This document shows positions 524 through 47,300 of a stretch of DNA of 64,000 bases, piece after piece; position 1 is the stretch's first letter; every line of letters begins with the position of its first letter. Location: NCBI RefSeq assembly GCF_032854445.1, contig NC_088301.1, positions 3,658,001 to 3,722,000 on the forward strand, in the 5' to 3' direction. Below the pieces are notes generated by a model that was not told the origin of the DNA, did not search any database, and saw only the letters and a program-made list of their open reading frames with translations. The position numbers were made by a program, and so were the translations under genes. This DNA comes from Liolophura sinensis (Eukaryota > Mollusca > Polyplacophora > Chitonida > Chitonidae).

Positions 524-3500
524 CTGAAGTGGAAAATAACTGACTGGTTTAATGCTAACCTCATCAATATTTTAAATACTTGCATATGCCAGACACCATA
601 CGATTAAATGATGGATACTAGAATTTTTTTTTTTTTTTTATGTATTAAGCCAGCAATCTGACCAAAAGAACAAAACAAAAACCTACCCCATCCTCCCACC
701 ACTTTCTTTACAGGTCTGCTGGGTCTCTAACAACTTTACGACTATTCTCACCAATTTTCTTCAGTGCAGTGATGACACATTCTCTGTACTGTTTGTTGCT
801 TTCATCAGATTCTACATCCTCAATCACCATTGGCTCAGATGCCTTCCTCATTTGCTGGGCCACCAAGTAGCCAATAGCCAACATTGAGCCATGCTGAACC
901 TCAAAACTCTGTGGAAAACAAGAAACACCAAACAGTTTTTATTCATTTATTTGACAGTTGTTTATAACAACATAGTCAAGAATTTTAAACTTTATGGTGG
1001 TATATAGATTTCATGTATGGGGGAAGCCAGATTGTACAAAACCACTGACCTCTGACAAGATACTGACAAACTCATCACATCATGACATCTGACACGTCAT
1101 ATTGCTGATCTTTAGTGAACTTCTACAAATGACCTGAACTTCTAATAAAGACTAGTATAACATGACTCACCTTTCCTGACAGATTACTGATGGACATCTC
1201 TATAATCCCCTAACTTATGAAACACACCTGGTATAACATGACTGACCTTTCCTGACAGATTACTGATGAACTTCTCTATAATCCCCTAATGTCTGAAACA
1301 CACCTGGTACAATATCACTGACCTTTCCTGACAGATTACTGATGGACTTCTCTATAATGCCCTGACTTCTGAAACACGCCTAGTATAACATGACTCAAAT
1401 TTCCTGACAGATTACTGATGGACATCTCTATAATCCCCTAACTTATGAAACACACCTGGTATAACATGACTGACCTTTCCTGACAGATTACTGATGAACT
1501 TCTCTATAATCCCCTAAGTTCTGAAACACACCTAATATAACATGACTGACCTTTCCTGACAGATTACTGATGAACTTCTCTATAATCCCCTAATTTCTGA
1601 AACACACCTGGTACAACATCACTGACCTTTCCTGACAGATTACTGATGGACTTCTCTATAATGCCCTGACTTTTGAAACACACCTCGTATAACATGACTC
1701 ACCTTTCTTGACAGATTACTGATGAACTTCTCTATAATGCCCTGACTTCTGAAACACACCTCGTATAACATGACTCACCTTTCCTGAAAGATTACTGATG
1801 GACATCTCTATAATGCCCAAACTTCTGAAACACACCTGGTATAACATGACTCACCTTTCCTGACAGATAACTGCTAGACTTTTCTATAATGCCCTGACTT
1901 CTGAAACACACCTAGTATAACATGACTCACCTTTCCTGACAGATTACTGATGAATTTCTCTATAATGCCCTGAACCTCGCACTGAGACCTGGTGTAACAT
2001 ATCGCAATGGCGTACAGCTGGGCGGCGTAGTTTCTCATATCCTCCTTACTGTTGAAGATGAAGGCCTGAAACAACAGAAAATGTGCAACTTAACATAATA
2101 CACTCATAGTGTAACTCTGAAAAACCAAAGACTCACCCTTACTCAGTATTTCAGTACTTTATTTTGCCATCATCAGTTAAGCTGTTGAGCTCTTCTGAGT
2201 TAACTGTGCAGCTTACCTACAACCACATGTAGATTGTGAGATTGGCCTAAATATGCAGACACATATCCACAATGCATTCTTTACTTCATGATTACACTTA
2301 GCTCTCTAGATACTAATTATCGAGACATAGTATAAATATTAACCTAATGTTTAATGCTTCATGAAAGAATTTTTCATTTACATAAAAGAGGCCAGGCCTG
2401 TCAAGTCTGTGGGTGGAGGAACATTCGCTTGAAACTGAGTTAACAGCCAAAGCACCGGCAGCTGGACGCTAAAACGCAGCCTCACCAGAAAAGTGCTGAA
2501 TATGCTAAAATCTGCAGCCTGCTCCAAAATGACGGCAGATAAATAGGAAATCTTCTGAACATTTCTGTGCATCTTTTTTCGCCTGACCCTCTGGCATACT
2601 CATACCCTTATACTATCATAATTTTTAAGAACTCAAAAAAATTTTTGTCATCAAGATCACAAAATGGAGCTATATTATATGTTTTTACTCTTTCACCTTG
2701 CTTTAAGAGCAAGCGAGTGCTTGTGGTTTAATGTCATAATTAGCAATTTTTCGTCATATGATGACGAAGGCATGTAATATGCTTCCTTGCATGATGGATT
2801 TCCACCGCTCTTTTATCTAGTGCTGCTTCACTGAGATGATGTACCAAAGGCAAGTAAGCTGCCCCACCCGAGCCATTATACTGATATGGGTCAACCAGTT
2901 GTGGCACAATACCCTTAATGCTGAATGCCACGTGAGGAAGTTACAACTTCCTCGCCCCCCAAGCGGACGCTCTACCAACTAAGCTATCAGGGATGGTCCC
3001 TGTTTTAAGATATTCTTGCATTAAGCATTTAAGACCACAGCATGGAGTAATTTGTCTGTATTCATGGATATTATTTTCCTTCCTTGCAAAGCCTTATTTA
3101 AAAACCCTCATTGTAAACTGCATTTATGGAATACCACTATATTTGCACAAAATGTTTTGTTCATTGCCATACCTTGATCCAATCCAGATGTTCCCTAAAC
3201 TGAGAAGCTAAATGACCGCGAGCTGCAGCAAACACTTCTACCAGACAGAACATGGCTGGAGGACCTATAATGTCAAGGTCAAAGGTACAAAGAGTTGTAG
3301 ACAACTAAACCTGAATTACCAATTCAATACATTCTATCTGTATGGACAACCATACACTGTGGATGTAAGCCACTTCAGGCACACCTACATGACATGTCAG
3401 CTTAAACCAGCGATCAGATGATGAGGGATAGACTCATGTCTACTTTTAAACAAACTTGGAATCTGCCAAACTCAATACTTCAAATAGCAAACTCACATTG

Positions 3501-6500
3501 TGTTTAGATATAAACTCCAACGGTCCTCATGGGGTGTTTGATCACGCTGATATAGTGCTATATGTACATGTGGGTGGATCCTTCAAGGCTTAAGTCAGCT
3601 TTCAACAGACCCAGAATGTGCTTAGATATAAACTCACCTCCAATGGTTCTCAGCAGCTGTGTGATCAGATGTATGTATTGCTGAACGGGCCAGGTAAAAC
3701 TTGGATCAAATTTCAACAGACTCAGAATGTGTTTAGATATAAACTCACCTCCAATGGCCCTCAGCAGCTGTGTGATCAGATGTATGTATTGCTGAACAGG
3801 CCAGGTGGAACTTGGATCAACTTCCAGCAGACTCAGAATGTGTTTAGATATCAACTCACCTCCAATGGCCCTCAGCAGCCGTATGACCAGATGCATGTAT
3901 TGCTGCACGGGCCCTGTGGGACTTGGATCAACTTTCAGCAGACTCGGAATGTGTTTAGAGATTCAGAATGTGTTTAGACATAAACTCACCTCCAATGGCC
4001 CTCAGCAGCTGTGTGATCAGATGTATGTATTGCTGAACGGGCCAGGTGGAACTTGGATCAACTTTCAGCAGAGTCAGAATGTGTTTAGATATAAACTCAC
4101 CTCCAATGGCCCTCAGTAGCTGTGTGATCAGATGTATGTATTGCTGAACAGGCCAGGTGGAACTTGGATCAACTTTCAGCAGACTCAGAATGTGTTAAGA
4201 TATCAACTCAACTCCAATGGCCCTCAGCAGCCGTATGACCAGATGCATGTATTGCTGCACGGGCCCTGTGGGACTTGGATCAACTTTCAGCAGACTCAGA
4301 ATGTGTTTAGAGATTCAGAATGTGTTTAGATATAAACTCACCTCCAATGGCCCTCAGCAGCTGTGTGATCAGATGTATGTATTGCTGAACAGGCCAGGTG
4401 GAACTTGGATCAACTTTCAGCAGAGTCAGAATGTGTTTAGATATAAACTCACCTCCAATGGCCCTCAGCAGCTGTATGATCAGATGTATGTATTGCTGCA
4501 CAGGCCCTGTGGGACTTGGATCAACTTTCAGCAGACTCAGAATGTGTTTAGCTATGATGGGAGAGTCAGCTTGCATGGAATTCAGGGACTCCAGGTTGGG
4601 TTTCACTCCTGCATCATTTGCGAGACACATCCTAAGGTACATCAGCATCTACAACGCAATCACCACATATACAGAAAATCTATAATTTCATGAAATTTTA
4701 ACCGCCTAACCCCTCTGCTTTGTGAACTGTAGTACTGCTGTTTCCTGTTTTGAGTACTTTGGCCCAACAAACTTGATTTATCTCGATAATTAGAGAGCTC
4801 TGGCCCATCAATGAAAACCCATGAGGTTTGTTCAGACACTAAATAAAGTTCAAAAAATGTTTTGCACTGACAAACTGTTTGTTTGTTTATTTCATTCTTT
4901 GACACCATACTTAAGAATACTCCCCTTATGCGCTGACAGTCAGTTTCATTGGTGGAAGGAACAAATTGTCCAAGCCAAGCCACTGAGCTTTTATGTACAC
5001 AATATCGGTGGAAGAGAGACCGGTCCTCAGTACAAGTTAGATTGCATAAATGCCAACACCACCATCATTGACAGTCACCAACAGCCTCATGAACAGTAAA
5101 AGCGATGGAATCTGTCCATTCCCAGACTAATTCCAGTATTGAACCCACACTTTGTTTGTCCTAGTGATACCAAATTGACACCCAATGATGACATTTGTTT
5201 ACTTCATGACTGGAGGACCTGAATTAGCTTACCTCTCCATAGGTGACCGGGTTGAATGGTAGCACATGTGTACCAATGGCATATGTCTGATTGCTGGACA
5301 GTCTTTCCTTAGCCTGGAGTGAATAAACAAAAAACACCATTACCACTTATCTTTCTGACTGGTAAAACACAGGTGATTTCTTATCTACATACATCATATG
5401 AATGTTCTTGTTCAGGAAAAAGCCTTGTTTTGTTTTCTTTTTTAATTGTACAAACAAAATACAACTACATGAAGAAAACTAGGGAGGAATATCATATCCG
5501 CACTGGAATATTGTTGGAAAATGGAACTTTCTGAACAGGAAAAACATGACTAATCTTTTAAAAAGTAAACGCACACTAACACTCACCCATAAGCCTTCTT
5601 TTGCTACAGGTTCAGAATGAAGGAACTGATTAGTGGACATGGTAGACATGTGATCAATGTAGAAGATCATTCGACAAGTGCCATGGTCACTCCACTGGAA
5701 GTGGTAGATTTGTTCGTCTGGCAGGTTTCATGCTTCAGTCTGGTTATGACAGTATAATGACTTACCTTGCCAGTGATGTAGGTGACCATGTTCTCAAACT
5801 TTGGCAGCTGAGCCGACTCGTGAGTGACCTCTGGCTTCTCATGCTCATCATCTTTGGGTAATGACCTCAATGCCTTCACAGCCTCTGAGTATATCTCCTC
5901 TTTACTGCAATATGAGCAACAAAATCTCATATTCCAAACTGATTTTTGACGACAGATAACGCCAAGCCTCAGGAATGAGTTACATGTATAGGGATATTCT
6001 CATGGTTTTTGATTGGTTGTATTTTACAACTGAATAGTATCTCTAGTACCCCTCGGGTACGTTGGTTGTGTTAAAATGCACTTTCAGAAGCACATAAAGG
6101 TCTTAAAAGATACTTTTGATGCCAAAAGTCAAGTTTTTCTGATAAGAAAATCACACTTCACAAAAAAAACTCTTACATGACCTAATATTACAGGCGGATG
6201 AATCAATCAGAATCCAGCAAAGTGGGTTACCTGAAGAAAACTAAACCTTTACGTGAAATGGAGTATTCAACAATAAACCCAGAAGTTGTACATGATCGTA
6301 CTCTGAAGGTTAGTCTCCTGATATATTCTGACACAGCAACCATCTCAACAGGTGCCTCATGTACTCACACGTCCCCACAGGCCAGAAGCAGGAGGTAGCG
6401 TGAAGACACATGGTCTGGGGGGAACACCATCTGGGAGTATTTGACCGCCATGATCCGTGCCTGAGGCTCATCCTGGAGGTGGGGACACAAACCACCAAAA

Positions 6501-9500
6501 TACATGTTAGCTTCTGTCATTAAATCATACTTTGAAAGCAGAAAACTAATACATAGGACATGATATGTAACTCTCCTGTGAAAGAAAGACGTACATGTAT
6601 GTTATATAATGGAATTGTCAGTCTGCTAAGCATCTAGTATACTCACTGTACTTCAAAACTGCTTCTAACATGTACATGTCACTTATAAACTACTACATGT
6701 AGTATTCTTGTTATTTCTCCCAGAAATAAAAACTTTTTTCTCAAAGTCAAAAATTAAATAAAAACATATACTTAAAAAAAATCAACAGATTTTACACCTC
6801 TCAGAAAATCAGTAGATGTCTATGCAGGAGTCAAAGCACAAAACCATAAGGCATAGTCTTTCCCATTAGCCAAGATGCCTATTTTTTCCATAGCTTAGAC
6901 AAATAAATGTTGCTTAGATACACATACATCTGTAAATCCATCATCCTTAAGTGGCTAGAAATACATTATACAAATGAACACTCATACTCCTGAAAAAAAT
7001 GGAGAGAAAAGTGGTCTACACGGCTGAGAAGCCAAGCTATTTCTCCTTGTTCAGGACAAACTTGGTAGGCCCCAAGCAGCTCATCATGAAAAATGAAAAA
7101 ACTGATCTACATATACTAGAATGAAAGAATTGAATTGAGAATAAACTGAACGATTATTGCTGAATGCCATTTCTCAATACTGCAGCCAGGTCATGGTGAG
7201 AACATGCTTAAACTGAAGGCACCATAAACACATAATAAACCACAGCAATCAAACTGAGCACTGCTCACAAATCGCAATCACCTTTTCAAAGTTTTGTATA
7301 ATAAGAGCTTCCATGAGCATCTTATTGGTGTTGTCCATGTTCCTAAAGGCAGAGGACAGGATGGAGAGGGCCTCCTGTACACCAAGTCGCGTCTCACTGT
7401 CCTCCTACAGAACACAAGGTACCCCATTATACCCCATCAGTGTAATCATGATCTAAAATCAATGCCAGGAATTCTTTATTTTGAACATTTATATTTTCTT
7501 TTTTGTTTTGGTTTTTTTATACATATTTTACTCCACAGAACTTCACTTTATAGCATGGTGATCAGGTATATGGATGAACAAAAAAATGAAGTAGAAGTAG
7601 AAAGTGCAAACCTCAGCACCTTTGCCAGAAACCTGACACACCTCCTGACACATCTATGTGTATGGGCAACCTCACTGGCTCAGTGTATGGGCAACGTCAC
7701 TGGCTCAGTGTATGGGCAATCTCATTGTCTCAGAGTATGGGCAACCTCACTGGCTCAGTGTATGGGCAACCTCACTGGTTCTGTGTATGGGCAACCTCAT
7801 TGTCACAGAGTATGGGCAACCTCACTGGCTCAGTGTATGGGCAGCCTCACTGGTTCTGTGTATGGGCAACTTCACTGGCTAAGTGTATGGGCATCCTCAC
7901 TGGTTCTGTGCATGGGCAACCTCACTGGCTCAGTGTATGGGCAACCTCACTGGTTCAGTGTATGGGCAGCCTCACTGGCTAAGTGTATGGGGAACCTCAT
8001 TGGCTCAGAGTACGGGCAACCTCACTGGCTCAGTGTATGGGCAACCTCACTGGCTAAGTGTATGGGCAACCTCACTAGCTCAGTGTATGGGCAACCTCAC
8101 TGGTTCAGTGTATGGGCAACCTCACTGGCTCAGAGTATGGGCAACCTCACTAGCTCAGTGCATGGGCAACCTCATTGACTCAATGTATGGGGAACCTCAC
8201 TGGCTCATTGTGTGGGGACCTCACTGTCTCAGATTGTTCAAGCTACAGCTTGCTGTGACTATCAGGCCACTGACCAACTCGGACACGTATATGAGTCCTA
8301 CTACATTGTTCTGGCTGCGGCTGTAAGTCAGGAGGTTTGTCAGATACCTGGTGAAGGTCGATGGTTTACTCCAGACAATCGGGTCTCTTTATACATACTG
8401 TGGATATAGCATCAAAAAACCTCTGTGCCAGCCCTACGTCATTGGACACTAGAGAGGGCAAACGTTTTCCTAACTTCCCCACAGCCACATAAGCTAGGTT
8501 CCTTAACTTTGCATCCTGAAAATTAAACATAAACTGTCATCTCAGGATATGAAATTTCAATACCACAATGTTCTGTACCTCCCTTCCAGAAGATTTCCTT
8601 TATTTGTCGGTACAAAATTCTCAAGAGAGACTATTTAGTAACATTTCATCCACTAGACGATGCAGTGGTAAAACTGAATTTATTCTTTGGAGGTCAAAGT
8701 AATTCAAACACTTCACACTTATAAAACTGTCAGAAATGTTATTGTGTGACCTTTTCTAGAAGAGAAAAATGGAAAAAATATACATACTTGTTGAAGTGAA
8801 GCATTCCCTTTTGAATTCAATTAATGTTTTAATAGACCATATTTACCCTAATTCTTCAACCTTATCACACATGAAAGAGTAACTTTCAGTGCAATTAATG
8901 CACATTTTTAATTTGATTTTGGAGACTAAACAACATTGGTTGGATTGGCTTCACAAAAAGTTTAATTTTATTGGTGAACACAGAATGAGGCCTTCAAAAT
9001 ATGCTCGAATAAACATTTTACAAGTAAGTGAAAAGGCTGAAGAATTACAGTTGGCCCAATACCGTAACAAGGAAGGCAGAAGTGCACACGTACCTCCTTG
9101 TTATCACGTATGAGGTTTAACATGCCAGATATCAACACCTGACCAATGGCTCCCAAGTTTTCATCTGTACAACTACAACAACAGGTGATATGTATGTAGG
9201 TGTATACATCAAAATAGTCTGTGGTTTTCTGTAGTCTGTAGTCTTATCACGAAAATGTTAACTTCATATTAAAGACAAAACCCTTTTATCATATATGGAC
9301 AGAAAAAAACAGCATGACCCATGGCATATTGTTAGCAACCGAATAAAAGACTGAAACTCATTTGATAAAAGCATATTAATTTTGAGAAAATATAAGAGGG
9401 GATTAAAGAGGGGATTTTTAACTCTGGCTTATAGTTTTCTGATGAACTGACAGTCATACAAATTGATCAGAAATAAACCCAGAATGAATGAATGAATGAT

Positions 9501-12500
9501 TATGGCTTAACGCCAAGTTAGCAATATTTCAGCCATATTGTGATAAACCCAGAACAAATGAGATTCCAAATAAGACTTAAATTTACCAATATCTGAAATG
9601 TTAGCAGCCATAATAATATGCAATGCATACATGCATACTTCCAGCATATAACCAAAAGACAGACAGACTTACTAGAGGCACATGTGATGAACAAACTGTA
9701 CAGCATATTTCTTCAGCTTCTGGTGGGTATTAGCTCCATACATACACTCAAACACCGCCTGGAAACAGAATACATCTTGTAAACACCATGCTCAATTTTT
9801 CCATCATATGATGACAGTCAGTGCTATTGGTGGAGAAAACCAGAGTATGGATAAATGACTGACCTTTGGTAAGTTTACTGACCAGCTTTCAGATACGCCC
9901 ACCCAATTCGGGGAAGACAAATGGCCTGCAATGAATGTCAGATAGCGTACATAGCCACATGAGAATTGTCAACCACTTTCTGTCATCAAGACGTCGATGA
10001 ACAGTGAGAGCAGGGGATTTACTAATTCTCTGTCCAAAGCCAGGATGGGGGGTGGGGGTGGGGGGGGGGGTTGGGCAAGAGTTAGAGGGAGGCCTTCAGC
10101 TTAACTCATGAACTGACTGCCTGGAGGAAACATGTTCGCTGCTTTGTGGGACATGTGGACCTGAGGATGAGGAAAGGGTTGATGTTTGTCATTTTTAATG
10201 CAGTAACAAAGAATTTCTAACTTACACATGATGGCACTCAGGTTTTTCATGGGCAGAATAAACCGGAGTGCAGGGGGTATACCGATGGGCCAGAGTGCCC
10301 ACCGACCTTTGGCAAGTTAATCATGAAGAACTTTGCCGCATGACATACATGTACCAACTCCATATTGGTGGAAGACAAGTGGTCTTCAACAAATGTTAGA
10401 CTGAGTAAACAGTACTAATAGTATTTTTGGCCATTTTATTGTCTACAGCTCTCTACACTGAGGGTGGGGGAATCTACAAATCTGTGACTAAACCACGTCT
10501 TGGAGGGGATGTTGAAGACGGCTCCAGCTTAACTCACATGTATGATCAAATGTTAGGGAGGGAGAGCCTGAGAGAAAGTACAGGCAACCTCACAAGACTT
10601 GAGGATTTGGGGGAAGATCTTCAGCTTATTATAAACTCAGATGTTAACACTGCATCTGGCTTACCTGAACAGCCTGGGGGAAACTGTTGGCAGCCTCACC
10701 AGACTCAAGGATTTGGGGGAAGATCTTCAGCTTATTATAAACTCAGGTGTTAACACTGCATCTGGCTTACCTGAACAGCCTGGGGGAAACTGTTGGCAGC
10801 CTCACCAGACTCGAGGATTTGGGGGAAGATCTTCAGCTTATTATAAACTCAGGTGTTAACACAGTATCTGACTTACCTGAACAGACTGGGGGAAAGTGCT
10901 GGCAGCCTCAATGGACTTGAGGATTTGGGGGAAGATCTTCAGCTTATTATAAACTCAGGTGTTAACACTGCATCTGACATACCTGAACAGCCTGGGGTAA
11001 TGTGTTGGTAGCCTCGCGGGACTTGAGGATTTGGGGGAAGATCTTCAGCTTATTATAAACTCAGGTGTTAACAATGCATCTGACTTACCTGAACAGCCTG
11101 GGGGAAACTGTTGACAGCATCACCAGACTCAAGGATTTGGGGGAAGATCTTCAGCTTATTATAAACTCAGGTGTTAACACAGCATCTGGCTTACCTGAAC
11201 AGCCTGGGGGAAAATGTTGGCAGCCTCGCGGGACTTGAGGATTTGGGGGAAGATCTTCAGCTTATTATAAACTCAGGTGTTAACAATGCATCTGACTTAC
11301 CTGAACAGCCTGGGGTAATGTGTTGGTAGCCTCGCGGGACTTGGGGATTTGGGGGAAGATCTTCAGCTTATTATAAACTCAGGTGTTAACAATGCATCTG
11401 ACTTACCTGAACAGCCTGGGGGAAACTGTTGACAGCATCACCAGACTCAAGGATTTGGGGGAAGATCTTCAGCTTATTATAAACTCAGGTGTTAACACAG
11501 TATCTGACTTACCTGAACAGCCTGGGGGAAAATGTTGGCAGCCTCGCGGGACTTGAGGATTTGGGGGAAGATCTTCAGCTTATTATAAACTCAGGTGTTA
11601 ACACAGTATCTGACTTACCTGAACAGCCTGGGGGAAAGTGTTGGCAGCCTCACGGGACTTGAGGATTTGGGGGAAGATCTTCAGCTTATTATAAACTCTG
11701 GTGATAACACAGCATCTGGCTTACCTGAACAGCCTGGGGGAAAGTGTTGGCAGCCTCACGGGACTTGAGGATTTGGGGGAAGATCTTCAGCTTAACTCGG
11801 GTGCTAACACTGGTCCTGATGTGAGCTTTGTTTGTGTTTGATTTCTGAAGCACGCAAGTGAAAAAGCGAAAACAAATTACATCGACAAGCAAATTTACAC
11901 AAGGAGAAAGAATTTATTTATTTATTTGATTGGTGTTTTACGCCGTACTCAAGAATATTTCACTTATACGATGGTGGCCAGCATTATGATGGGTGGAAAC
12001 CGGGCAGAGCTCGGGGGAAACCCACGACCATCTGAAGGTTGCTGGAAAACCGTCCCACGTACGACCAGAGAGGAAGCCAGCATGAGCTGGACTTGAACTC
12101 ACAGCGAACGCATTGGTGAGAGACTCCTGGGTCATTACGCTGCGCTAGTGCGCTAACCAACTGAGCCACGGAGGCCCCTAAGGAGACAGAATGATGAATA
12201 AATGACACAGATAAAATCTATAATATTATAATCATAACTGCTAGTCAATAAAAACGAAGTAATAAGTCAGATGCCTTGATCCTTGTAAACAAATCCTACA
12301 TGAATAACTATCAAAACCCAATGAAACTTATCACAACAGACTCAAGTACTGCACAATTTACTTTACAGGTAATTCAAAGTTTCAGCATTTATACTTGCAG
12401 TTGTATGTAAGTTAATATTTTAGATTACCTGTCCCTTTAAGAGAATAGTTCCAAGAAACAGGTCAAAGAGCTTCTTAACTATCACAGGATCATTCCAGTC

Positions 12501-18500: not shown

Positions 18501-21500
18501 TTTTACACCATACTCAAGAATATTTCACTTTTAAGACGGCCGCCAGCATTATGGTGGGAGGAAACCGGGCACAGCCCGGGGGAAACCCATTGGACAATTT
18601 TGCTCATGTAACATAATACTGGACCATGGTGATGGTTTGCTGGTACATAACCAATGCTGCCATGTCATGTCTGGATTAATGTGTGTTGTTTGCCAGATGA
18701 AGTTGCACACAAATTGCACAAGTTCCAACAGTGGACAATTATCATCTTTTGGCCGAAACATACAACAGATTTACAGTGGACATTTTGCCGCTCAATGCTC
18801 AGTCTATGTTGCCATGACTCTGGTGATCAGATTTTTTAAATTTCCTTTAAAAGACCAACACTCTAAATTCACTTTGGATTTGCATCGAGACGGAAAAGAA
18901 GCAACAACCATGCATTTATTTATGTGTCAATGCGAACTCCTTGATACTGTATCAGCTCAAGCAGTCAGTCAGAAAAAGTGATTTATCAAATGAATGAACT
19001 ATTGCTACAGAAATGAACAAAGCAGGCCACTTACTGTGACAAATGGAGAAGACGCTGGGTCTTGGTATTGCATCAACAGTGCATCTACAGGTAGCTTCAC
19101 CTTAGGGCGGCTCTTCAGCCTCTTGTTCACATGGATCAAAAGCTCCATCACCTGAAATACACAGGTGAATTACAGCACTTATAAACAAATCATCATAGGA
19201 TTTATTTACTTATTTATTTGAATGGTGTTTTACGCCGTACTCAAGAATATTTCACTTATACAACGGCAGCCAGCATTATGGTGGGTGGAAACCGGGCAGA
19301 GCCCAGGGGAAACCCACGACCCTCCGCAGGTTGTTGGCAGACCTTAACACGTACAGCTGAAATCATCAAAGGAATTATCAAACTTGTAAAAGAGAGAATT
19401 ATAGACACTGTAAATGAGTCAGGTAAATTACAGCCCTCACAAATAATTTTGTTTATTGGACTGGTATTTTCTGCCATAGGTACGAATATTTGACTTATAC
19501 ATGTAAGAAAGCAACCAGCATTATGTCCCCTCATAAATGAGACTTTAATCAATCATCATGATTTATTTATTTTTTTGATTGGTGTTTTACGCCGTACTCA
19601 AGAATATGTCACTTATACGACAGCGGACAGCATTATGGTGGGAAGAAATTGAGAAGAACCCGGCGGAAGAAGCCCACTGCCATCCGCAGGTTGCTGGCAG
19701 ATGTTCTCACGTCAATTATCATGGGGATCACATGTACAACTCTTCCATAGAAGTCATGTAAATTACAACAAATGTATTAAAGCGGGTTGTTGTACTTTAA
19801 AATCAATACCATCAAACAATGGGCTTGATAATACAAGTCTACATGAACCTCTGTCATATAATAACACCTTAAAAATATTTCTATGCGGATATCTTAAGCT
19901 TATACAATATTTAGTACAAACAATATTTACATGTTATCACAAAATTCATACAAAGTGCATTAAAATAAGCTGACATCAACTGTCTGAAACATTTCAATTA
20001 GAAATTTTTTTAGGTAATTTTTCAATACATAGATAATGTACTATTTCTTTTGTTCTTGATTTTACTTGTTGCTTAACAATTTCCACTATGAACAAATCAA
20101 TTTGTAATTTACCTTTTTCCGAACAGTTTCTTCTGGACTGCATAATTTCAGCAGCACGGGTGGCAGGAATTTACTAAGTCTGACTTCTAACTGTTCATCT
20201 GTCTCTGCTGACCCAACGCGAAAGAACACTCGTTCCAGCAAGGCTGAAAAATAGGGTGTATGAGTGTTACACAGTATGGTAAACTGCAAATGTGAAAACT
20301 TCATGCTGTTACAAAAATGTTTCATTTTCACTACAGATCATAATAGTTCATCGCCCCTTCAATGTGGTCAAAACTCTCACATTACATTTCTAGTGCGTAC
20401 CTGTTATATCTACCTCTAATGTGCAGGGTGCAGTTTTCTCAGTCCATCTTTGGACTCACTGTCCTGTTTTATAATTATGATCTCATTGTAATACTGAGTC
20501 CATCCTTGTCTCTCAACAAACATGGCACAGATTTGAAACCCTTACCACCTTCCCATTCACAACAACCAAACTCCCCTCCTCATTATTATGTTATATAATT
20601 GTACATTATTATTACAATTATTATTTATTCTATAATGTGACTCTCACATCATAGACTGTTTTTGCTAGAAAATTTCGCACCAGCAACCCACCAGATCAGC
20701 AAAACTGATTTTTCTAGGCCACATGGTTGAGTATACTAGCATTTGATTTTGAGCACAACTGTTCAACAGCTTTTTCTTGAAAACCGATGAATGATCGATC
20801 TAAACTTTAGCATGTCCGTAGGCTGAGCCTAGTTGCACTAAGTCTGAGAAAACCATTCACTTTCAGTAAAACCTCTGGAAGCTCACCATTGGCCAAATAT
20901 ATGTCATAACTTCAAATTCTGGTATAACTTTCAGACTTTATTTTTTGTCTGTATCTTTGTAACTTTTTGACCTGTAAATCGAAAAGTAAGAGCACTAGAA
21001 CTTTGAAACTTTCCCCACACTGTTTCCCGAGGAATGTTCTTCCTGTATGTTAATGTGAGAACAGAACTGAACACCAACCTTCAGAGATAGAAATACAAGC
21101 CAGTTACTCATCTTAGTATCTTGTGAATAATTACAAATGCATCTTCTGAAACTGTATACCATGATGCCTTCTGAGGGCTGTTGTCTTAAGTAATGAACTC
21201 TCTGTGGGGGAGTACAAAAGCCTCTATTGCCACATAAAAAATATAACCTGGTTCAAAAGTTTTTTTCAATCAGTCATTCACCAACAGATGTACCTGTAGG
21301 CATGCCCATAATTTGGGAAAGCTCCTTACAATATATTATCAGCGGGATACATACAAGCTGTAAATTTCCATAATATTTTATTGAGGCTTTTTATTGTGAG
21401 TTTGTTATCTGGTACTAATTTCTAAAGCCAGTATCTGCAGCAGTTATAGTGAATGCAGTCTTGAGTTTTGTAATTCATATACCCACATAATCTTTGCATA

Positions 21501-22710: not shown

Positions 22711-23130
22711 GTTGATCACAAGTTCGCCTTGTGGCAGTCGTATTTCGCATGTGGAGTTTTAGGGGCCGTACGTAAATGTCCACATGCTTACTTTGAATTT
22801 GTATGAGTAACTCATTATTTTGTCTTGTAACACTGGTGGCTTGCCCTATACACAGAATATCACAAATTGCAACTGGTAAAATTTCCAGCTAATATTGAAA
22901 TAGCAGGTACGGAGAACACCCAACTTTTTACTGTTAGGAAGCAGAGAAAACTATCCCTCGAGCGGATTTTAGTACGACAACCCGTCACGTGAGAATACGG
23001 TTTACGGCAGTATTTGGAAACTGAACTCTATGTTATCGAAGTACGAAAGTGAAACCTTGCTTTAAAGTGATTCCTCTTGAATGTATCTTTATGTTGCGTG
23101 TCATTATCGACGAAGAAAGCTAAAGTCGAC
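22711..23130. promoter_or_regulatory. Divergent intergenic interval between ECPAS and MCOLN starts
   Basis: The two start codons face away from each other across 420 bp, so both 5' UTRs and core promoters should fall here unless 5' non-coding exons exist upstream. No TATA box is obvious at a fixed distance. A CLEAR-like E-box sits at 22,984-22,993. An in-frame TGA at 23,068 precedes the MCOLN ATG, supporting that ATG as the first in-frame start. Transcription start sites cannot be read from sequence alone. Confidence 0.7.
22984..22993 (+). promoter_or_regulatory. CLEAR-like E-box (GTCACGTGAG)
   Basis: Nine of ten bases match the palindromic CLEAR consensus GTCACGTGAC bound by TFEB/MITF family factors. 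It lies 138 bp upstream of the MCOLN ATG and 274 bp from the ECPAS ATG. In mammals MCOLN1 is an established TFEB target; that this site is used here is inference. Confidence 0.55.
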
Positions 23131-35300: not shown

Positions 35301-38300
35301 AAAATGCTGAAGAATTACGGTATACTGTTATACACTGTGCGTAGATATAATTTATAGGTCAAGATTTGTCTCGAGCACATTAGGATGGTGCAGAAGTCCA
35401 GCTTCCCATTTTTGTAGTTCAGAGCCTGTGTTTTAACCCTTGTTTTCTCTGACCTTGGTGTACAGATTGCTTGAAGCATATGCTGACAGGTGGCTGGCAG
35501 GGCCAGGGTTAACGTCAACGTCAACCTATTAACATGGGATATCTCTGCACCATAAGTGATCTGTCAAAAGGTTGATCAGGTGTCTTCTTTGTGTGTCACT
35601 GTATTATGATATGGTGGTAATTATCTTTGCGTCATTTTGAATACATTCAGTTTTCTGTGTTGATCTGAATTCGAAAACTCACGTTGGTGAAAAGAGCCTG
35701 GTCCGGTATGGTTCAGTGTCATATATCAATGGGATCTGTAACCATGGACATAGTGAAGTTATCCTAGCATGTTCTCCACTGGATAGTGCGTTGTTTTGTA
35801 TAATTTGTAAGGAACAGGTAGTTTACTTTCATGTACTCTGCTATGTGGAAAAAGCCCATGTTGCTAAACCGACTAATATTCTAGTCGTGCTGTGTAATTC
35901 AGGTAACAAACTTCTACATGTTAATAGGTCAGGTGTCCGTAAAACTTGTGAAGACCTGACAGATCCGGGCTCATTTGTTTTAAGTTGTATTGCTGTGTCA
36001 CATTTGCAGCACTGTTTAAAATTCTGTGCTACAAGTGTAACCCAAGGCCAACCTAGAACAATGGTAAGAAAACCTAGCCCAGAAACTGATGACTGTGTGT
36101 TCAGAACAACTGAATGCCTAACACTGTGTACATGGAGGTGTTGTATGATTTAAGCACATATAAAGTGATTGTCCACTTCCATTCTGATTGGTCTAGTTTT
36201 AAACATTCTTGAAGCATTTCCTTAACATGAAAATGGTCTTTGTTGTTTGTTTCTCATTGAATGGTCATAATGTTGGGAAATTTACATAATGGCCACCAAG
36301 ATCAGATAAGTTAAATCAAACAAGGTAAATACTTCAGACTGAAAATACATGTGCTGAGGCTTGAAAGGTCAAGAATGGATTGGGCACATGCATTTCTGAA
36401 GTTTAGAAATGTACAATATCATAGCTATGCATGAAATTATGTGAGTTTTTACATCTTTCAGAGCTAAAAAATATGGTCGAGAACTGTCAAGGGGAAGTTA
36501 ACTCCGGCCCTCCAAACTCTATCCCATCCATTGTGGTAGATAGAATTAACTCAGAGGATCACGACTTCCTGTCTACGACAGCGTCCATCAACATGACAGG
36601 ATCAACAGAACAAGTCAAGCCTGGCACACTCTATACACCAGGCATGGAGGATCGCCTACGCAGAAAACTGAAATTCTTCTTTATGGATCCATGCGAAAAA
36701 TGGAAAGCCAAGCGAAGGTTTCCATGGAAATTGGGATTACAAGTGCTAAAAATTTTATTGTTAACAATCCAGGTGAGAAACTTGTCTTAATGTGCATCAA
36801 TCAAATTAAAACACAAAATTATCTTAGAATCTTAGAATATCAAGAACTTGAAATCAATTTGAATTTCCCAAGCCAAAAAAATTTAACTTGAAATATAAGT
36901 TATTTGAAGCCAGTATTTGTAGGTTAATTCATATTGTATTTACATGTAGATCTAGTAACAAATGTAAAATGTCCTGTTTGGATGAAAGACAGTTATAGTC
37001 ATGACATTGTTTTTAAATCTACTTCCAGCTGGCCACATTTGGTTATGAGAGGTCTAATTTTGTGGAGTTTGTGGAGCGAAACACAGTGTCTTTTAAACAC
37101 CTCTTTCTGAAAGGCTGGGACCCCAGCTTTGAGACGATGCCCTACCCCCCTGCCACAGGGGTTTATGCCATCTATGAGAAAACAGAAGTTATCAACCATA
37201 TGAACTTTGCCTTACGGCGGGTAAGAAAAATGATGTTGGTTAGTAACACTGAGGTACAAGTACTACCAGGTACGAGCTTTATTAGGACATACCAGCAGAG
37301 TGTATACATGGACCTGAAGATACTTTCACCTATTTTTTAATTGATTTATATACTTAAATTATACACTCAAAAATGTTTAAAATTTCAACTTTCCTGTTGG
37401 TGCTGTGATATTTTGTTGCAGTCCTTTCCTTTTGTTAATGCTTATTGCAGATTTTCAACAGGGAACAATGTTTTCATGGTTTTCTCCATGTAAGAATATA
37501 TGTATATGAAGTGTCACATGGAGATAACTTAGGGTAGGAGTAGAGGTAGAGGAAAAATCTTGCTGAGTATAGCACTCAGCTGTTCCTTGTGGGCCAACCG
37601 TCTGGTATGCCTGAACGCTGCATTTGTTTAGTGTCTAGTGCTTAGCCCAGTTACCTCCAACAATAAACCTGACTACCTGATATAAGTAAAATATTAAAAA
37701 CAGTTAAGTGTAAAGAAAAAAAAAGTAAAAGAAACAAATAAATGAGGCATGTGTACAGTGTAGTGTCAGTCTTAGGGTGGGGAGTCAAATTATAACAAAG
37801 ACTCCATTGAGTTTAGTGCCACGAACTATGACAAATACCACTGAGGTCACAGATGTGAATTGCTGGCATGTTTCAGTATGAACAAACACCTTTGATTGCA
37901 CTGGGTGGATTTCGCGTCATACGTGATGTCAACGGGTCAGCATTACCAGTACAGCTGTGTAAGGTGACTTATGCAGTTGGAACCGTCTACGACAATAACA
38001 CATTCATCTTCGACTCGGAACTGAAAACAGGTATTGTTAATCTTGCCATCTGTACATCATCTTGGTTCAGCCATTTCACTTAAGCCCTTTCTTCAGTGCA
38101 ATTTTGGCATACATGTATAATCATTTTGAAAATGAGGCTAAGAATGATTTGTTTATGTCATTAAAGAAGCAAACTTCATAAAACTCACAGTTTCTTTACA
38201 CCCACTAGTTCTCTCAGAATGTTTCAAAATATTGGTTGCAAAGGCAGTTGAAAAGCTTGAAGAATTGAAAGATATTGTTGTCATATGTAAGATGTCATGT

Positions 38301-41300
38301 CATGCCAACTTTAAAGTGAACATTCATTCAGTCAATCAGTTGATGTGTATATACATGTACTTACATATAGCTGCACTGTGTCCATAATGGCTGTTAGGAT
38401 GTCTTCACCTTATCAATCACTCTGCATAGGTAGATCTACATGTACGTGCAGTGTGTCTCTAGAAACTCCTGTATGATGTTTTCAGTCGGTCAGTCATTTT
38501 CTCTACATGTACATTGTGTCAGCAAAATCTTTTACGATATTTTCAGAGTGTTTCTTTGTGCACAAAGTCGCAGTTTTCAATTCCACCACAAATCGTACAG
38601 AGATGGTTTACGATATTCAGAAGTTCCTGGAAGAAAAGAACAAATCCCTGAACTTTGACAGGTTTGTACTAAATCTTGTGTTCTGAGAGCTCTTCTAGTA
38701 TCAGCAATTGTAATACATGCATAACACTCAGACCACATCAATCATTTACTAATGTATGGTTTTCAGGCTCTTGGAGGTACAGTTGAAGTTTGCCCTGAAG
38801 TCTGTGAATTTAGAAACATACGCTCAACGTGCCGCACCCGAGTGTTACAAGTTTAATATAACTGTGAGTAATCCCCACTTTCAGCTTGCCACATGCCTGT
38901 TCAGTCCATTCGATCACCAAAGCAAAATAATTAGCATTTTTGATTTTATGCCCATGTTGTTTCCTCCCATCATAATGCTGGCCGCCATCGTATAAGTGAA
39001 ATATTTTTGAACACGACATAAAACACCTACCATATAAATGAACAAATAGATAAATTATTTCCATGTTCTGAGGGATAATTATTTATCATGGACTTATACT
39101 GCTGTGTTAGTATGACTTACTGGACATCTGTATTCAAGGGGAGATAACACTGTCCATCTTAAGGGTCTGATGCAGAAAAAATGTTACAGTTTGTTACCAG
39201 CTTAACTCAAAAGCTGTTAAGTTTTATACTGAACACAGCTTAAAACATTTTCCGTCTGGCAGCAACCTGCGTATGGTTGTGGGTTTCCACTGGGCTCTGC
39301 CCGGTTTCCTCCCACCATAATGCTGGCCGTCGTCCTATAAGTGAAATATTCTTGAGTATGGTGTAAAACACCAATCAAGTAAATAAATAAAATTAAAACT
39401 TTTTCACCATTATTAGAAAAAGGGTCAAACCAAGAATGGCCGTTCAAAGTTTACCAGTTCCATGAATGATTGTGACATGAACATTTTCCTAAGGTATTGC
39501 AGCATTTTGCTCACGTTGTAAACTACAAGTACATCGCTCAGGTGAATGTTCACTATGTCCTCCTCAAAGTAGTCTCATCTTTCCGGTCTGTCTACGTGTT
39601 TAAGTTGACCTTTTTGCCCAGGATTTATCAACCCAGTTATTGTCAGATTTTTATGTATGTAACACCAAAGAAGGGGAGATGGTGAGGGCAGCTCCATTCC
39701 AATCAGTGATGTGTGCCAAAACTAAATACATATATATTAAAACCAAAAAAAAATATCGTCAGTCAATACAGCACTGAAATATACACATGTATAGAAAGAC
39801 ATAAAAGCCAAAAAATGTATACATATTTTATGTTTTTAATTTAATTTTTTTTTATTTATTTCATTGGTGTTTATTCCATCAGGAGTAATAAGTATTTTAA
39901 TTGGATAAAGTCAAATATGACTTGTGTACAGCCCATAACATTGAAAAAGAACATTGCATACTTGAATTTGAGTTGAATTCACCCAAGGGGTATCAGAATT
40001 CAGAAAATTATATACATATTAATAACCCAGGCAAGATGTAAAATTCAAACGGTATAAATCAACTTCAGATTGATTAGGCTAAGAAAAGGCAGCTAGTAAA
40101 ATGGAAGATCTGCCATTTTGATTTGCCATTTTTATTCATATATTCACCGGACTAAAGTTTATAATAGAGATAGTGTTCGTCTGGTAGAAAAAATAATTAA
40201 TATTTGCAAAACAAAATATTGCATAACAATATTGTATAAAACATAAACTTCTGAGAATCTGTCCCAAAACCTGTTATATCACATAGAAACAAGAACCAAT
40301 CCACCCACAACATATACACCTGCCGTGAAAATGCACATATGTAGTATGTATTATTTTTGTATTGTTTCTTGCAGATAACTTTTGACAACAATGACCATGA
40401 TGGTCAGATGTTAGTAGAACTGGATACTTATGTCTCAGCGCTTGTCTGTAAAGGGGAGATCATTTATAAAGGTATGGTTATTGGAACTGGATACTTATGT
40501 CTCAGCGCTTGTCTGTAAAGGGGAGATCATTTATAAAGGTATGGTTATTGGAACTGGATACTTATGTCTCAGCGCTTGTCTGTAAAGGGGAGATCATTTA
40601 TAAAGGTATGGTTATTGGAACTGGATACTTATGTCTCAGCGCTTGTCTGTAAAGGGGAGATCATTTATAAAGGTACGGTTATTGGAACTGGATACTTATG
40701 TGTCAGCGCTTGTCTGTAAAGGGGAGATCATTTATAAAGGTATGGTTATTGGAACTGGATACTAATGTGTCAGCGCTTGTCTGTAAAGGGGAGATCATTT
40801 ATAAAGGTATGGTTATTGGAACTGGATACTTATGTCTCAGCGCTTGTCTGTAAAGGGGAGATCATTTATAAAGGTATGGTTATTGGAACTGGATACTTAT
40901 GTCTCAGCGCTTGTCTGTAAAGGGGAGATCATTTATAAAGGTATGGTTATTGGAACTGGAAACTTGATATACTGTTTCATCTGTACTTGTGTTCTATCAC
41001 ATAAACCATCAAGCAAATAATTATCAAGTGAATAATTTATGTGTTTCACATTAGGATTTTCAGACATCAGTGGTTTTGATACCTGTTGATCCGAGTGTTA
41101 CTTTTGATCAATTTTTATGAAGCTTGGCCCAGTGGTTGCTTATGTTATCCATGTTGTGTTCATGTTGATGATTGTCAGTCTGTGTGTTTCAGCCGATAAT
41201 GATGCACGTCGGCGAGAGCTGACAGCGTTTGACGCTATGGTGATGATGGTCAGTCTGCTGTCCTGTCTGCTCTGTATTAGGTCATTAGCCAGGGCACAGA

Positions 41301-44300
41301 AACTTAAGATGGTATGTGATTTCGGTTCTGTATCAGACCCTTAGCCAGGGCACAGGCACTAAACATGGTATGTGGTTTTGGCATGAAAATGTGGTTATTC
41401 AGTTTGAACATGGAATTGTGGACAATGTGAATATTTGAGGAAAGTCCCTTGTGGGCCCGTGATAAAGAAGGTAGTGCTATATTTCATTGTTTAGCGTGTA
41501 CCTGTTTCCATAAGACTGTACTAAATCTTCGTGATTACTACAGAAAATGTGCATCTATATCAGTGAAATAAAACAAAATCAGTGTATTTCCAAATGCTGA
41601 AGTGACATTTCGATATTCTGTATTGATCAGGAGTATGCCAATAACAAGAATGTACACATTTACTTTTATACACAAGAGTGACAATGGTAAATATTAACAA
41701 AGCATTGGTGAGAAATATACAGCTTATATGTATATGGTAGCTAAGATATGAATAGAATGTTCACCTCAGGTAATAGGAAGATTGCATGGAAGGGTGAACT
41801 CAAAATGAGTGGAAAAAGAACGAAAAGAAAAGCGTGGATATAATGACTAATGGCTCTAATGCCTTCATTATTTAGAGTTTTGTTATATATAAAACAAATA
41901 GTGTTGTATTTCAATAAAATGAATAAATAAGTGTGTTTAAAGTGCCAGTCTTTTTTTCTGTTTTTGTGCAGGAGGTTGCTAGATACTTCAAAAACAAACA
42001 CAACAAAACCCTGGGCACATCCGACAGACTTGAGTTCTGGAACTTTTGGTATGTGCTGATCATATGTAATGACATCCTTACTGTAGTCGGAACCGCGTTC
42101 AAGATACAACTGGAAACTAAGGTAAGTCAAGGTTGAGATAAAGCCATAAGATAAGGGCAGGTCAGTGACCCATCCAAGCCGTTATGGTCGACCTTTCAGC
42201 ATTACATGGCTTCTCTCCTTGGAATCAGAGTAATAATAATTTATACCTAATACAATTTTGATTAATTAACCTAATTGTAAAACTCTTCCATAAGAATTTC
42301 ATTCAAGTTTGTGGCACTGTGAGACGATAATAAGGACTTGAAAACCCACCTTCGAATGTGTGTACATGTTTATGTAGTTTTTATTGGCCAGTCGTGGAAG
42401 AACAAATTTTTGGTTTTACATTTTCAGCGTGCACAGAGTTCCTCAGAGAACTATGACCTGTGCAGTATGATGTTAGGAACAGGAAACCTCATGGCCTGGT
42501 TCGGTGTGTTAAGATATCTGGGCTTCTTTAAAAAGTATAATGTAAGTAACCTAGACATTTTACAGGGAAAGACATTTTCTAATGTTAGACTGATAGGCAT
42601 CTAAGCCTGGGCATACAGAGCAGCTTAAACCCTGGCAACCCAAAACACCAATCTACAGGGCCATATAGACCAGGTGGTTTATGTCTGCAGGGCCATATAG
42701 ACCGAGTGGTTTATGTCTGCAGGGCCATATAGACCCGGGTGGTTTATGTCTGCAGGGCCATATAGACCGAGTGGTTTATGTCTGCAGGGCCATATAGACC
42801 AGGTGGTTTATGTCTGCAGGGCCATATAGACCGGGTGGTTTATGTCTACAGGGCCATATAGACCAGGTGGTTTATGTCTGCAGGGCCATATAGACCGGGT
42901 GGTTTATGTCTGCAAGGCCATATAGACCTGGTGGTTTATGTCTGCAGGGCCATATAGACTGGGTGGTTTATGTCTGCAGGACCATATAGACTGGGTTGGT
43001 TGTGTCTGCAGGGCCATATAGACCAGGTGGTTTATGTCTACAGGGCCGTATAGACCAGTTGGTTTATGTCTGCAGGACCATATAGACCAGATGGTTTATG
43101 TCTGCAGGGCAATATAGACCGAGTGGTTTATATCTGCAGGGCCATATAGGCCGGGTGGTTTATGTCTGCAGGGCTATATAGACCGGGTGGTTCTGCAGGG
43201 CCATATAGACCAGGTGGTTTATGTCTGCAGGGCCATATAGACTGGGTGGTTTATGTCTGCAGGGCCATATAGACCAGGTGGTTTATGTCTACAGGGCCAT
43301 ATATACCAGATGGTTTATGTCTGCACAGCCATATAGACCAGGTGGTTTATGTCTGCAGGGCTATATAGACCTGGTGGTTTATGTCTGCAGGGCCATATAG
43401 ACCAGGTGGTTTATGTATGCAGGGCCATATAGACTGGGTTGGTTATGTCTGCAGGGCCATATACACCAGGTGGTTTATGTCTGCAGGGCCATATAGACCA
43501 GGTGGTGTATGTCTGCAGGGCCATATAGACCAGGTGGTTTATGTCTGCAGGGCCATATAGACCAGGTGGTGTATGTCTGCAGGGCCATATAGACCAGTTG
43601 GTTTATGTCTACAGGGCCGTATAGACCGAGTGGTTTATGTCTGCAGGGCCATATAGGCCGGGTGGTTTATGTCTGCAGGGCTATATAGACCGGGTGGTTC
43701 TGCAGGGCCATATAGACCAGGTTGTTTTTTTTCCGGCATTGCCATGTAGACTGGGTGGTTTATGTCTACAGGGCCGTTTAGACAAGGTGGTTTATGTCTG
43801 CAGGGCCATATAGACCAGGTGGTTTATGTCTACAGGGCCATATAGACCAGGTGGTTTATGTCTGCAGAGCCATACAGACTGTGTGATTTATGTCTGCAGG
43901 ACCATATAGACCGAGTGGTTTATGTCTGCAGGGTCATGTAGACCGGGTGGTTTATGTCTGCAGGGCCATATAGACCAGGTGGTTTATGTCTGCAGGGTCA
44001 TGTAGACTGGGTGGTTTATGTCTACAGGGCCGTTTAGACAAGGTGGTTTATGTCTGCAGGGCCATGTAGACCAGGTGGTTTATGTCTGCAGGGCCATATA
44101 GACCAGGTGGTTTATGTCTGCAGGGCCATATAGACCAGGTGGTTTATGTCTGCAGGGCCATATAGACCAGGTGGTTTATGTCTGCAGGGCTATGTAGACC
44201 GGGTGGTTTATGTCTGCAGGGCCATATAGACCTGGTGGTTTTTGTCTGCAGAGCCATATAGACTGGGTGGTTTATGTCTGCAGGGGCCATGTAGACCGGG

Positions 44301-47300
44301 TGTGTGTGTCCATGTATGGACTCTTCTTTAGAAGACTTCTCCTTGTACATTTTGTGTAAAATTGTTTGATTTAACCTACTTGACCAAAGTCACAACTCTA
44401 AGAAACGACATTCTCGACAGATTTCTCTCTTTCTGTATTTTGAGTGATCTTTAGGAATCATGTTCCGAAATATAGAACTTCTCGGAGTTGAGACTTTGGT
44501 GAACTATGTAAAACTGCTGATATTATTCACAGCATATAAATTTCTCTTTGCCTACAATCACATTACGTGTGTTTAAATCTAATCAACATGACTAATATAT
44601 CTTTGTGTACATGTATATAAATGTGCAAAGATTTTTATGATTGTTTCAGATTTTAGTGTTGACATTAAAAAGGGCATTTTCCCAATGTGCTGCGGTTCTC
44701 TGTCTGTGCTCTGATGTTGTACTGTGGGTTCCTTTTCTGTGGCTGGGTCGTTCTTGGCCCCTATCACATCAAGGTAAAGATAATGGCTCACAATGCTCCC
44801 AGCAAAGCTGTTCTGTGCTGGGTCGTTCTGGGCACCTATCACATCATTGTAGAGGTAAGGCCTACAGTACTCCCAGCAAAGCTGTTCTGTGGCTGGGTCG
44901 TTCTAGGCCCCTATCACATCATTGTAGAGATAATGGCCTACAGTACTCCCAGCAAAGCTGTTCTGTGGCTGGGTCGTTCTGGGCACCTATTACATCATTG
45001 TAGAGATAATGGCCTACAGTACTCCCAGCAAAGCTGTTCTGTGGCTGGGTCGTTCTAGGCCCCTATCACATCATTGTAGAGATAATGGCCTACAGTACTC
45101 CCAGCAAAGCTGTTCTGTGGCTGGTTCATTCATCATAAAATCCTATCATAAAATGTGCATGACATCCCAAGTACACAGGTTGTTCCTATCACACTGTGGC
45201 CACTGCTTGGATGTGTTTCACTCTCTAAAATCTTCATATTCCACATACCTGTGTTCCAGGGTAATTTATCACCTGATGATCTTATTTGACCCACATTAGA
45301 TTTGCAGCATACCTGTAGTTGTAGCTTTCTGTTAAGATATTCCCTAACCTTGAAATATTCTTTGATGTTAAAGTATTCTCAGCCTTTGAAGTATTTTCTG
45401 ACCCTTGCCCTATCCTTTTATCACAGTTCCGTCACCCAAGCTCTACCTCTGAATGTCTGTTTTCGCTAATCAATGGTGACGACATGTTTGTAACCTTCTC
45501 GGCCACCCAGACCAATAACAACTACATATGGTACTACAGCCGAATTACCTCTACATCTTCATCAGTCTTTTCATCTATGTTGTGCTCAGTCTCTTCATCG
45601 CAGTCATCATGGACACCTACGAAACCATCAAGGTGAGCTTAAGCCCAAGCTTCTTTGTTTTGCTTTTCTCCTTACGGTAAAAAATTGTACAAATTGTACA
45701 GATAGGGACTGGTCCGCAGCCGTATATAAGGAGGTTTACCTTGTAGCCGCTGGGTTACTCTGGTTTTCCTCTGACTGACTAGTTTCCTTCACTCACACAA
45801 CAGAGCACCATTGTAAAATAGAAATAACGTTAAGTACAACGCGCTCTGACACTGATCAGATAAATAAATAAATGCCAGAAGACCTGTCAAGGTTCCAACA
45901 TTCAGAGACTTTTTCATTTATATTCAGAGACTCAACAATTCCTTTGCTTCCATTCTCAATTCCAGCTCCCATTGGTTTCTGCTATTAGTTTTAGTCAGAT
46001 TTGTCAGATACCTGGGTATGAAGAGTGGTGGTCCACTCTGGGTTTCTCTACCCATAAGCCTGATGACCAACGGTTATGTAACAAATTTTTCTGTGCGATG
46101 GATTAAATAAATAAAGAAGGGAAGTTCATTTGTTTACTTTTGAGATCATGACTTACATGTATCAAATTCATACATTGGGACATTTTGGTATGGTGCATAC
46201 TACATTGTGTCAGCATTCAGTCACTAGATGACCACAATATGGCTGCGGCAACACCATAATCATTTGGTCATTGACTGATATTCATGTACTAGAAAGTTTA
46301 ATCGCACTGTTCTTACCAGACTAGTTAATTGCTCTCATAGATTCTGGAGTATTAATGGTTCCAAGGACTTTTACAGCATGCCACGTTACGTGTGTATCTG
46401 ATGTATTTTATTGTTGTGTGACAGCATGATTAATTTTGAACGGTTTTTCCTCCAGAATCTACATGTACTTCATCAGTTCTGTATTTGTCTGTTGATTGTT
46501 GTATTATACAGCAGTAGGCCTATTATTATGTTGTATTTACACTTTATGTTGCGCTTTACTTTGAAACTGTTGTTGTAATGAAGTACTTATATATTGTACT
46601 GTGTTGTGTTACACAACTGTTATATCGCATTACAGCACTCTTATTTTGTACTATATTGTATAACATAACTGTTGTGTTGTATTACAGTACTACTATGAAC
46701 ACGGTTTCCCCAAGAGTGAGCTTCATGAGTTTATGGATGAATGTACAGACCCACCCCACTCCCCACTCTACAGACGGGAGACTCGCGGCTGTAATTTCTT
46801 CTCCATGCTGCCCTGCTGTGGCAGGTAAGCCCTTCAAGTGAACTCTGATTATAGTAGTGTGTTATACAAGTAAAGTGGGATGTGCAGTCATTTGACGAGA
46901 AGGGTTAATAGGCAGTAGTAGCCTGGGCTCTGTAAACAGTAGCCTGAGCTTTATAGACAGTAGCCTGGGCTCTATAGACAGTAGCCTGGGCTCTATAGAC
47001 AGTAGCCTGAGCTCTGTAGACAATAGCCTGAGCTCTATATACAGTAGAGAGTAGCATGTGCTCTATATACAGTAGCTTGGGCTCTATAGACATTAGCCTG
47101 TGTTATATGAACAGTAGCCTGGCCTCTGTAGACAGTAGCCAAGGCAGTATAGATAGTAGCCTGAGCTCTATAGACAGTAGCCTGGGCTCTCAAAACTGTA
47201 GCCTGAGCTATATTGACCATAACCTGAGCTCTATGGACAGTTGCCTGGGCTCTATAAACAGTTGCCTGAGCTCTATAGACATTTGCCTGAGCTCTATAGA

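Follow-up and report, generated by a model that had tools for sequence, protein, structure and literature searches.

Tandem arrays copying exon ends and their 5' splice sites recur in introns of three genes in the chiton Liolophura sinensis

The stretch of DNA analysed here, called the window, comprises 64,000 nucleotides (nt) of the Liolophura sinensis genome (contig NC_088301.1, positions 3,658,001 to 3,722,000). Coordinates are counted from its first letter, and those beyond its edges belong to the flanks. The source assembly of this chiton, GCA_032854445.1, has 609.46 Mb in 632 contigs; passages of its description give 609.5 Mb in 632 scaffolds, HiFi coverage of 14x and a mean read of 8.3 kb (PMC11068029), and the species name was corrected to Liolophura sinensis in PMC12441733. 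Three genes are considered. ECPAS, encoding the proteasome adaptor ECM29, is on the minus strand and extends from 22.7 kb leftwards past the window edge; mucolipin (MCOLN) is on the plus strand; and DNAAF11 is located in the right flank. Many introns of these genes begin with tandem arrays in which the 3' end of the upstream exon is repeated together with its 5' splice site, and the structure, recurrence and possible origin of these arrays are described below.

The identity of ECPAS was settled by Pfam; a search of PDB with the same protein gave one weak match, to a synthetic repeat protein. Spliced alignment to three mollusc ECM29 proteins yielded 50-52 aligned pieces per protein, and the gene was curated to 49 exons, of which the coding sequence joined from the first donors contains no stop. 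Mucolipin matches Mucolipin-3 in PDB with 435 bits, and its exon ends were taken from spliced alignment to two mucolipin proteins. Both of these mollusc proteins align with two short frame breaks in the mucolipin exons, at 44676 and 45543, which may represent an assembly error, a polymorphism or a decaying gene. DNAAF11 is matched by an NCBI L. sinensis protein. Overall, 48 introns from ECPAS, 11 from mucolipin and 16 from DNAAF11 make up a set of 75.

An earlier note on the window, made from its letters, had described six donor arrays, and all six were found by Tandem Repeats Finder (TRF), each beginning within the exon and extending beyond the donor. On the minus strand, the array of ECPAS exon 9 (functional copy 11725..11844) occupies 10565..11794 with a 106-bp unit in 11.6 copies, composed of 70-95 exon and 11-36 intron nt by the two measures explained later. 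The array of exon 17 (4453..4648) occupies 3595..4555 with a 111-bp unit and 130-bp spacings (99-103 exon and 8-12 intron nt), and that of exon 19 (1931..2065) occupies 1155..1971 with a 76-bp unit in 10.8 copies (41-70 exon and 6-35 intron nt, again by two measures). The ends of these three exons are agreed upon by all three ECM29 proteins in the spliced alignments. On the plus strand, mucolipin exon 40375..40471, supported by both proteins, is followed by an array at 40410..40965 (67 bp in 8.3 copies; about 62 exon and 5 intron nt). Exon 41193..41311 has an array at 41271..41378 (56 bp in 1.9 copies; 41-46 exon and 10-15 intron nt); its donor at 41311 is supported by one of the two proteins, the other placing the exon end 4 bases later. 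Exon 44650..44773, supported by both proteins and bearing the frame break near 44676, has an array at 44735..45131 (76 bp in 5.2 copies; about 40 exon and 35 intron nt), in which the GT is retained in the copies in a poor context (ATTGTAGAG).

The junction self-similarity scores of the six arrays range from 35 to 65, compared with a maximum of 19 and a 99th percentile of 15 in a null of 352 cross-intron comparisons. Some figures of the earlier note need adjustment. Its six arrays stand, but the total of 33 introns does not, since the window holds 31 complete introns (20 in ECPAS and 11 in mucolipin); its 7-37 intron bases per unit become 5-33 by local alignment and 5-37 by TRF bounds in these arrays; and its mucolipin exons 7, 8 and 11 are the correct exons with shifted numbers, being exons 6, 7 and 10 in the present list, which is without one 5' exon. 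Its statement that most copies keep a GT agrees with 37 of 40 downstream copies, counted among copies aligned to the junction. The exon-17 array was also considered as a coding variable number tandem repeat, since its unit length is divisible by 3 and parts of the unit have an open reading frame; this was ruled out because the 130-bp spacings, with 19 extra bases, break the frame.

When a junction self-similarity score of at least 20 is called an array, donor arrays are present in 14 of the 75 introns (ECPAS 9, 17, 19, 23, 26, 34, 36, 40 and 47; mucolipin 6, 7 and 10; DNAAF11 6 and 15). On the acceptor side there is one strong array, in ECPAS intron 23 (score 123), and a second match at 20.5, in mucolipin intron 7. 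For donors against acceptors, the Fisher p is 0.0005-0.003. The weak donor of ECPAS intron 38 (score 16) is outside the count. DNAAF11 junctions were scored with a simpler self-similarity test than the wider one used for the other two genes, and by this test none of its 16 introns has an acceptor array. Among the 44 introns beyond those first flagged (ECPAS 21-48 and DNAAF11), eight donor arrays and one acceptor array were found (binomial p 0.04). DNAAF11 intron 15 carries a decayed array of which the match spans just 3 intron bases. At DNAAF11 exon 6 (87187-87554, right flank), the unit of 106 bp, in 3.5 copies, contains the whole 76-bp exon with an acceptor stretch and the donor, unlike the other long-unit donor arrays, where the unit holds the 3' part of the exon only.

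The earlier note had seen no clear acceptor counterpart. This is correct for strong arrays inside the window, where just the match in mucolipin intron 7 and a 52-bp repeat of two copies were found, the latter placed by TRF at 46590..46691 on the plus strand and reaching the acceptor that follows with 4 nt of exon. It is incorrect for the ECPAS gene as a whole, because the strong array of intron 23 lies just outside the left edge of the window, at -2022 to -964. This array has an 86-bp unit in 12.2 copies, each unit combining some 40 nt of intron with 46 nt of exon, and the same intron also bears a donor array.

A home-made exon predictor was applied outside ECPAS and mucolipin and gave 80 exons, of which nine within repeats were dropped; the remaining 71 showed seven donor and two acceptor matches of at least 20. 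Since several of the donor matches were in arrays or antisense, the main counts are restricted to homology-checked exons. Outside these counts are predicted exon 102614-102757, with one diverged upstream acceptor copy, and the marginal predicted exon C1 20778-21024. The end of another predicted exon, 113246-113852 in the right flank, seeds one more donor array, with units of 27 bp (113666-113852), which is not counted either.

Nineteen array loci have a TRF period of at least 50, when three ECPAS intron-47 rows are merged. Thirteen of them resemble the end of the upstream exon, one resembles the start of the downstream exon, and five resemble neither, ECPAS 38 being among these five (score 15, best shuffle 12.5). 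By chance, a randomly placed 80-bp interval would span a donor in 6.6% of positions in these genes (binomial p ~1e-11). Only one of 15 short-period loci, in ECPAS intron 40, is exon-derived. If ECPAS 36, with a 30-bp unit and a TRF period of 210, is reclassed as short, the figures become 12 of 18 long and 2 of 16 short loci. The 14 donor arrays over three genes, together with the 13 long-period loci among 19 that stem from an upstream exon end, support the earlier proposal of a recurrent process.

The composition of the units was measured in two ways. Local alignment gives intron parts of 11 nt in ECPAS 9, 12 in 17, 6 in 19, 11 in 23, 30 in 26, 13 in 34, 10 in 36 and 5 in 47, and 5, 10 and 33 nt in mucolipin 6, 7 and 10; the mean intron share over these 11 arrays is 0.19, it is below 20% in eight of them, and it departs from a uniform distribution (Kolmogorov-Smirnov p 0.0009). 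By TRF bounds, the intron part is 36 nt in ECPAS 9, 8 in 17, 35 in 19, 4 in 23, 30 in 26, 17 in 34 and 29 in 47, 5, 15 and 37 nt in mucolipin 6, 7 and 10, and 13 nt in DNAAF11 6, with a mean share of 0.28 over 11 arrays (p 0.014 in the same test). The settings for ECPAS 26 were a reach of 44 nt (53 in one copy) and for ECPAS 47 a spacing of 59 bp. ECPAS 40 and DNAAF11 15 were too irregular for either measure. The units are therefore richer in exon than in intron by both measures, but the size of the difference varies with the measure, as the intron part per unit depends on the distance to which copies are traced into diverged exon sequence.

One explanation is that 5' splice sites are themselves hotspots, where some feature of the donor, such as a co-transcriptional R-loop or replication that stalls at the edge of the exon, would set the right breakpoint shortly past the donor. 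The local alignments are consistent with it, since nine of 11 arrays have intron parts of 5-13 nt, and donors carry about ten times more long-period arrays than expected. However, a sharp fixed edge right after the donor is seen by local alignment only; TRF bounds spread the intron parts over 4-37 nt, and the edge thus depends on tracing into diverged sequence. An exon-biased process combined with a requirement for the donor predicts much the same.

Word counts over the whole genome bear on the same question. Pairs of AGGTRAGT 50-80 bp apart number 4,685 against 2,089 for the reversed control (singles 50,967 and 47,888); pairs of TTTTCAG number 5,072 against 1,692 (singles 235,905 and 108,701), and pairs of TTTTNCAGG 705 against 264 (singles 41,822 and 25,555). 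After removal of chance pairs, the three words exceed their controls per site by factors of 2.14, 1.21 and 1.63, respectively. Scaled by the 15, 10 and 2 of 75 annotated sites that match the words, these factors give donors a lead over acceptors of 1.3-2.6 fold. The control is imperfect, as AGGTRAGT singles are only 6% above it. The donor-word excess amounts to some 2,500 pairs, in which one array yields several pairs and not every pair need lie at a real exon. The 2.1-fold tandem excess of AGGTRAGT per site, at a spacing of 58-88 bp, fits a hotspot at donors, but acceptor words are in tandem excess too, although a smaller one. Overall, a donor hotspot appears rather unlikely. Its broader form, in which 5' splice sites of the chiton lineage would be germline duplication hotspots and a process linked to transcription or splicing would seed intronic minisatellites throughout the genome, with the breakpoint close past the donor, is speculative and slightly less likely again.

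The copies downstream of the exon could also have a function, as alternative or decoy donors that would tune splicing or recruit the U1 small nuclear ribonucleoprotein. A GT is kept in 170 of 189 aligned copies of 14 arrays, which would suit such a role, but the count is limited to copies whose alignment reaches the junction, which favours retention. When two short-unit arrays are excluded, a GT is present in 106 of 118 copies, compared with about 98 expected from neighbouring exonic dinucleotides, and core-donor identity is not significantly above exon identity (Wilcoxon p 0.09). The decoy donors look neither purged nor specially retained; they are kept about as well as the neighbouring exon sequence, and the earlier suggestion of a donor ladder gains no support as far as function is concerned. 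In addition, the unit length in most arrays is not divisible by 3, and splicing at a later donor would then shift the frame. Functional ladders are considered improbable.

Introns can reportedly be gained by tandem genomic duplication, in which part of an exon containing AGGT is duplicated. The chiton units resemble this in being duplicated exonic segments with AG|GT, and one may ask whether the arrays record the birth of their introns from AGGT-containing coding segments. A passage of PMC3087553 proposes such an origin for the "mirages" of amphioxus, tandem repeats across exon-intron boundaries. An intron born in this way is expected to start with a copy of the start of the next exon, but in all 13 long-period donor arrays this similarity is below the best of 60 shuffles, and beyond the arrays the intron continues as ordinary sequence and ends at an acceptor of its own. 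Both points distinguish the chiton arrays from that mode of intron gain, which is very unlikely to be their source.

Similarly little weight is given to an assembly artefact, which is just as improbable. Tandem repeats are hard to assemble, and the read coverage is 14x (PMC11068029). On the other hand, HiFi reads average 8.3 kb according to the same passages, and the counted arrays are below 2 kb. Moreover, the copies diverge from the exon copy (identities 0.68-1.00), and the pattern is seen again in three genes.

The explanation that we favour, and hold to be somewhat more probable than its negation, is that these mirage-type arrays arise from tandem duplications that are prone to include exon sequence and then pass through a selective filter for the first donor. 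Local tandem duplications, mostly of 50-110 bp, would span the exon/intron junction and, in this chiton, would preferentially take up exon sequence. Selection would retain duplications in which the exon itself is undamaged, its first copy still being joined to it with a complete 5' splice site, and a normal mRNA could be made from the first donor. In line with this, the NCBI L. sinensis DNAAF11 protein includes just the first of the copies of exon 6, and the alignments of ECPAS to mollusc ECM29 pass through the first donors; in vivo, splicing would probably proceed from the first donor. Later, the duplicated units may have expanded and become homogenised as in other minisatellites. Exon-prone duplication with a filter for an intact first donor would explain why units are rich in exon sequence yet include the donor. 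Acceptor arrays may be rarer because a unit would need the branch point and pyrimidine tract, and because upstream decoys would be transcribed first.

Several points weigh against this explanation. The intron share is below 20% in just four of 11 arrays by TRF bounds, so that the exon richness is moderate by that measure. The exon-prone duplication is itself something that we infer, and exons differ from introns in GC content (47% and 40%). In the acceptor array of ECPAS intron 23, the AG is intact in ten of 11 well-aligned upstream copies, or 11 of 12 when one weakly aligned row, with its AG kept, is added and a row without a mapped junction is set aside; acceptor decoys are thus not always purged. 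ECPAS and mucolipin were chosen because they had been flagged, and the genes are not a random sample. Finally, the genome-wide donor to acceptor lean is just 1.3-2.6 fold with a wide error, resting on poorly known matching fractions and the imperfect control, and it falls short of the local ratio of 14 to 1-2. The donor preference of the earlier note is supported as a local lean (14 against 1-2, and 8 against 1 in fresh introns), whereas exclusivity is not supported, given this genome-wide lean and the strong ECPAS acceptor array. Even so, a filter acting on exon-prone duplications would account for most of the facts, with the donor-specific hotspot the less probable source.

Other repeats are present in the region. 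In the 264-kb region, 23% of the sequence lies in tandem repeats, compared with 6-20% in four other blocks. Outside the annotated genes, at 53194-60532, units of about 33 bp form an array of 7.3 kb (214 copies by TRF) with a GC content of about 0.5 and a strong strand skew. At 11930-12180, 19220-19340 and other places there is a recurrent element, with a head resembling a tRNA and a AATGCTGGCC...AATAAATAAATA tail, which looks like a short interspersed nuclear element. In the right flank, a predicted exon at 116083-116497 has an in-frame repeat (SDISAMNVN...) and is a possible coding minisatellite. On contig C1, 26642195-26642299 and 26643291-26643386 both match myosin-head segment 118-152 and are possibly alternative muscle myosin exons.

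The pattern is real, recurrent and known in kind. Tandem duplication of a whole exon is resembled by the DNAAF11 exon 6 unit alone. The closest known system is that of the amphioxus mirages, reported in passages of PMC3087553 and PMC3902484 for Adh, troponin C, the globins BflGb6 and BflGb9, and PGBD5. According to these passages, the units are 10-160 bp long and many contain splice signals, splicing is regular for Adh and globin, and the globin mirages involve both 5' and 3' boundaries, BflGb6 being the acceptor case. Both arrays of PGBD5 are described as having their first copy directly next to a 5' splice site (PMC3902484, PMC3087553), and a passage of PMC3902484 describes mirage copies of the lancelet gene called as exons by gene prediction. 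Gene predictors may likewise take mirage copies for exons elsewhere.

The chiton arrays are similar to mirages in that the unit spans an exon/intron boundary, at 14 donor junctions and one strong acceptor junction of the 75 introns; in size, with units of 26-111 bp (and longer TRF composite periods) in 2 to 41 copies; and in the splice signal retained in many copies, as the GT count indicates. A literature search, with subscription journals largely outside its coverage, found no report of mirages in a mollusc among the papers listed, and the main text of a chiton genome comparison (PMC12005716) contains neither 'tandem repeat' nor 'minisatellite'. As far as searched, the density in a mollusc and the donor lean are new. 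Natural ladders of tandem 5' splice sites may be available in very large numbers in a single chromosome-scale genome, and could be used to test how the spliceosome chooses among near-identical donors and whether exon edges are mutational hotspots. Compared with amphioxus, where the passages treat single genes, the arrays of this other phylum occupy 14 of 75 introns in three genes with a lean towards donors. A phenomenon described in a handful of genes of lancelets is thereby extended to a mollusc, where it is dense enough for statistical treatment.

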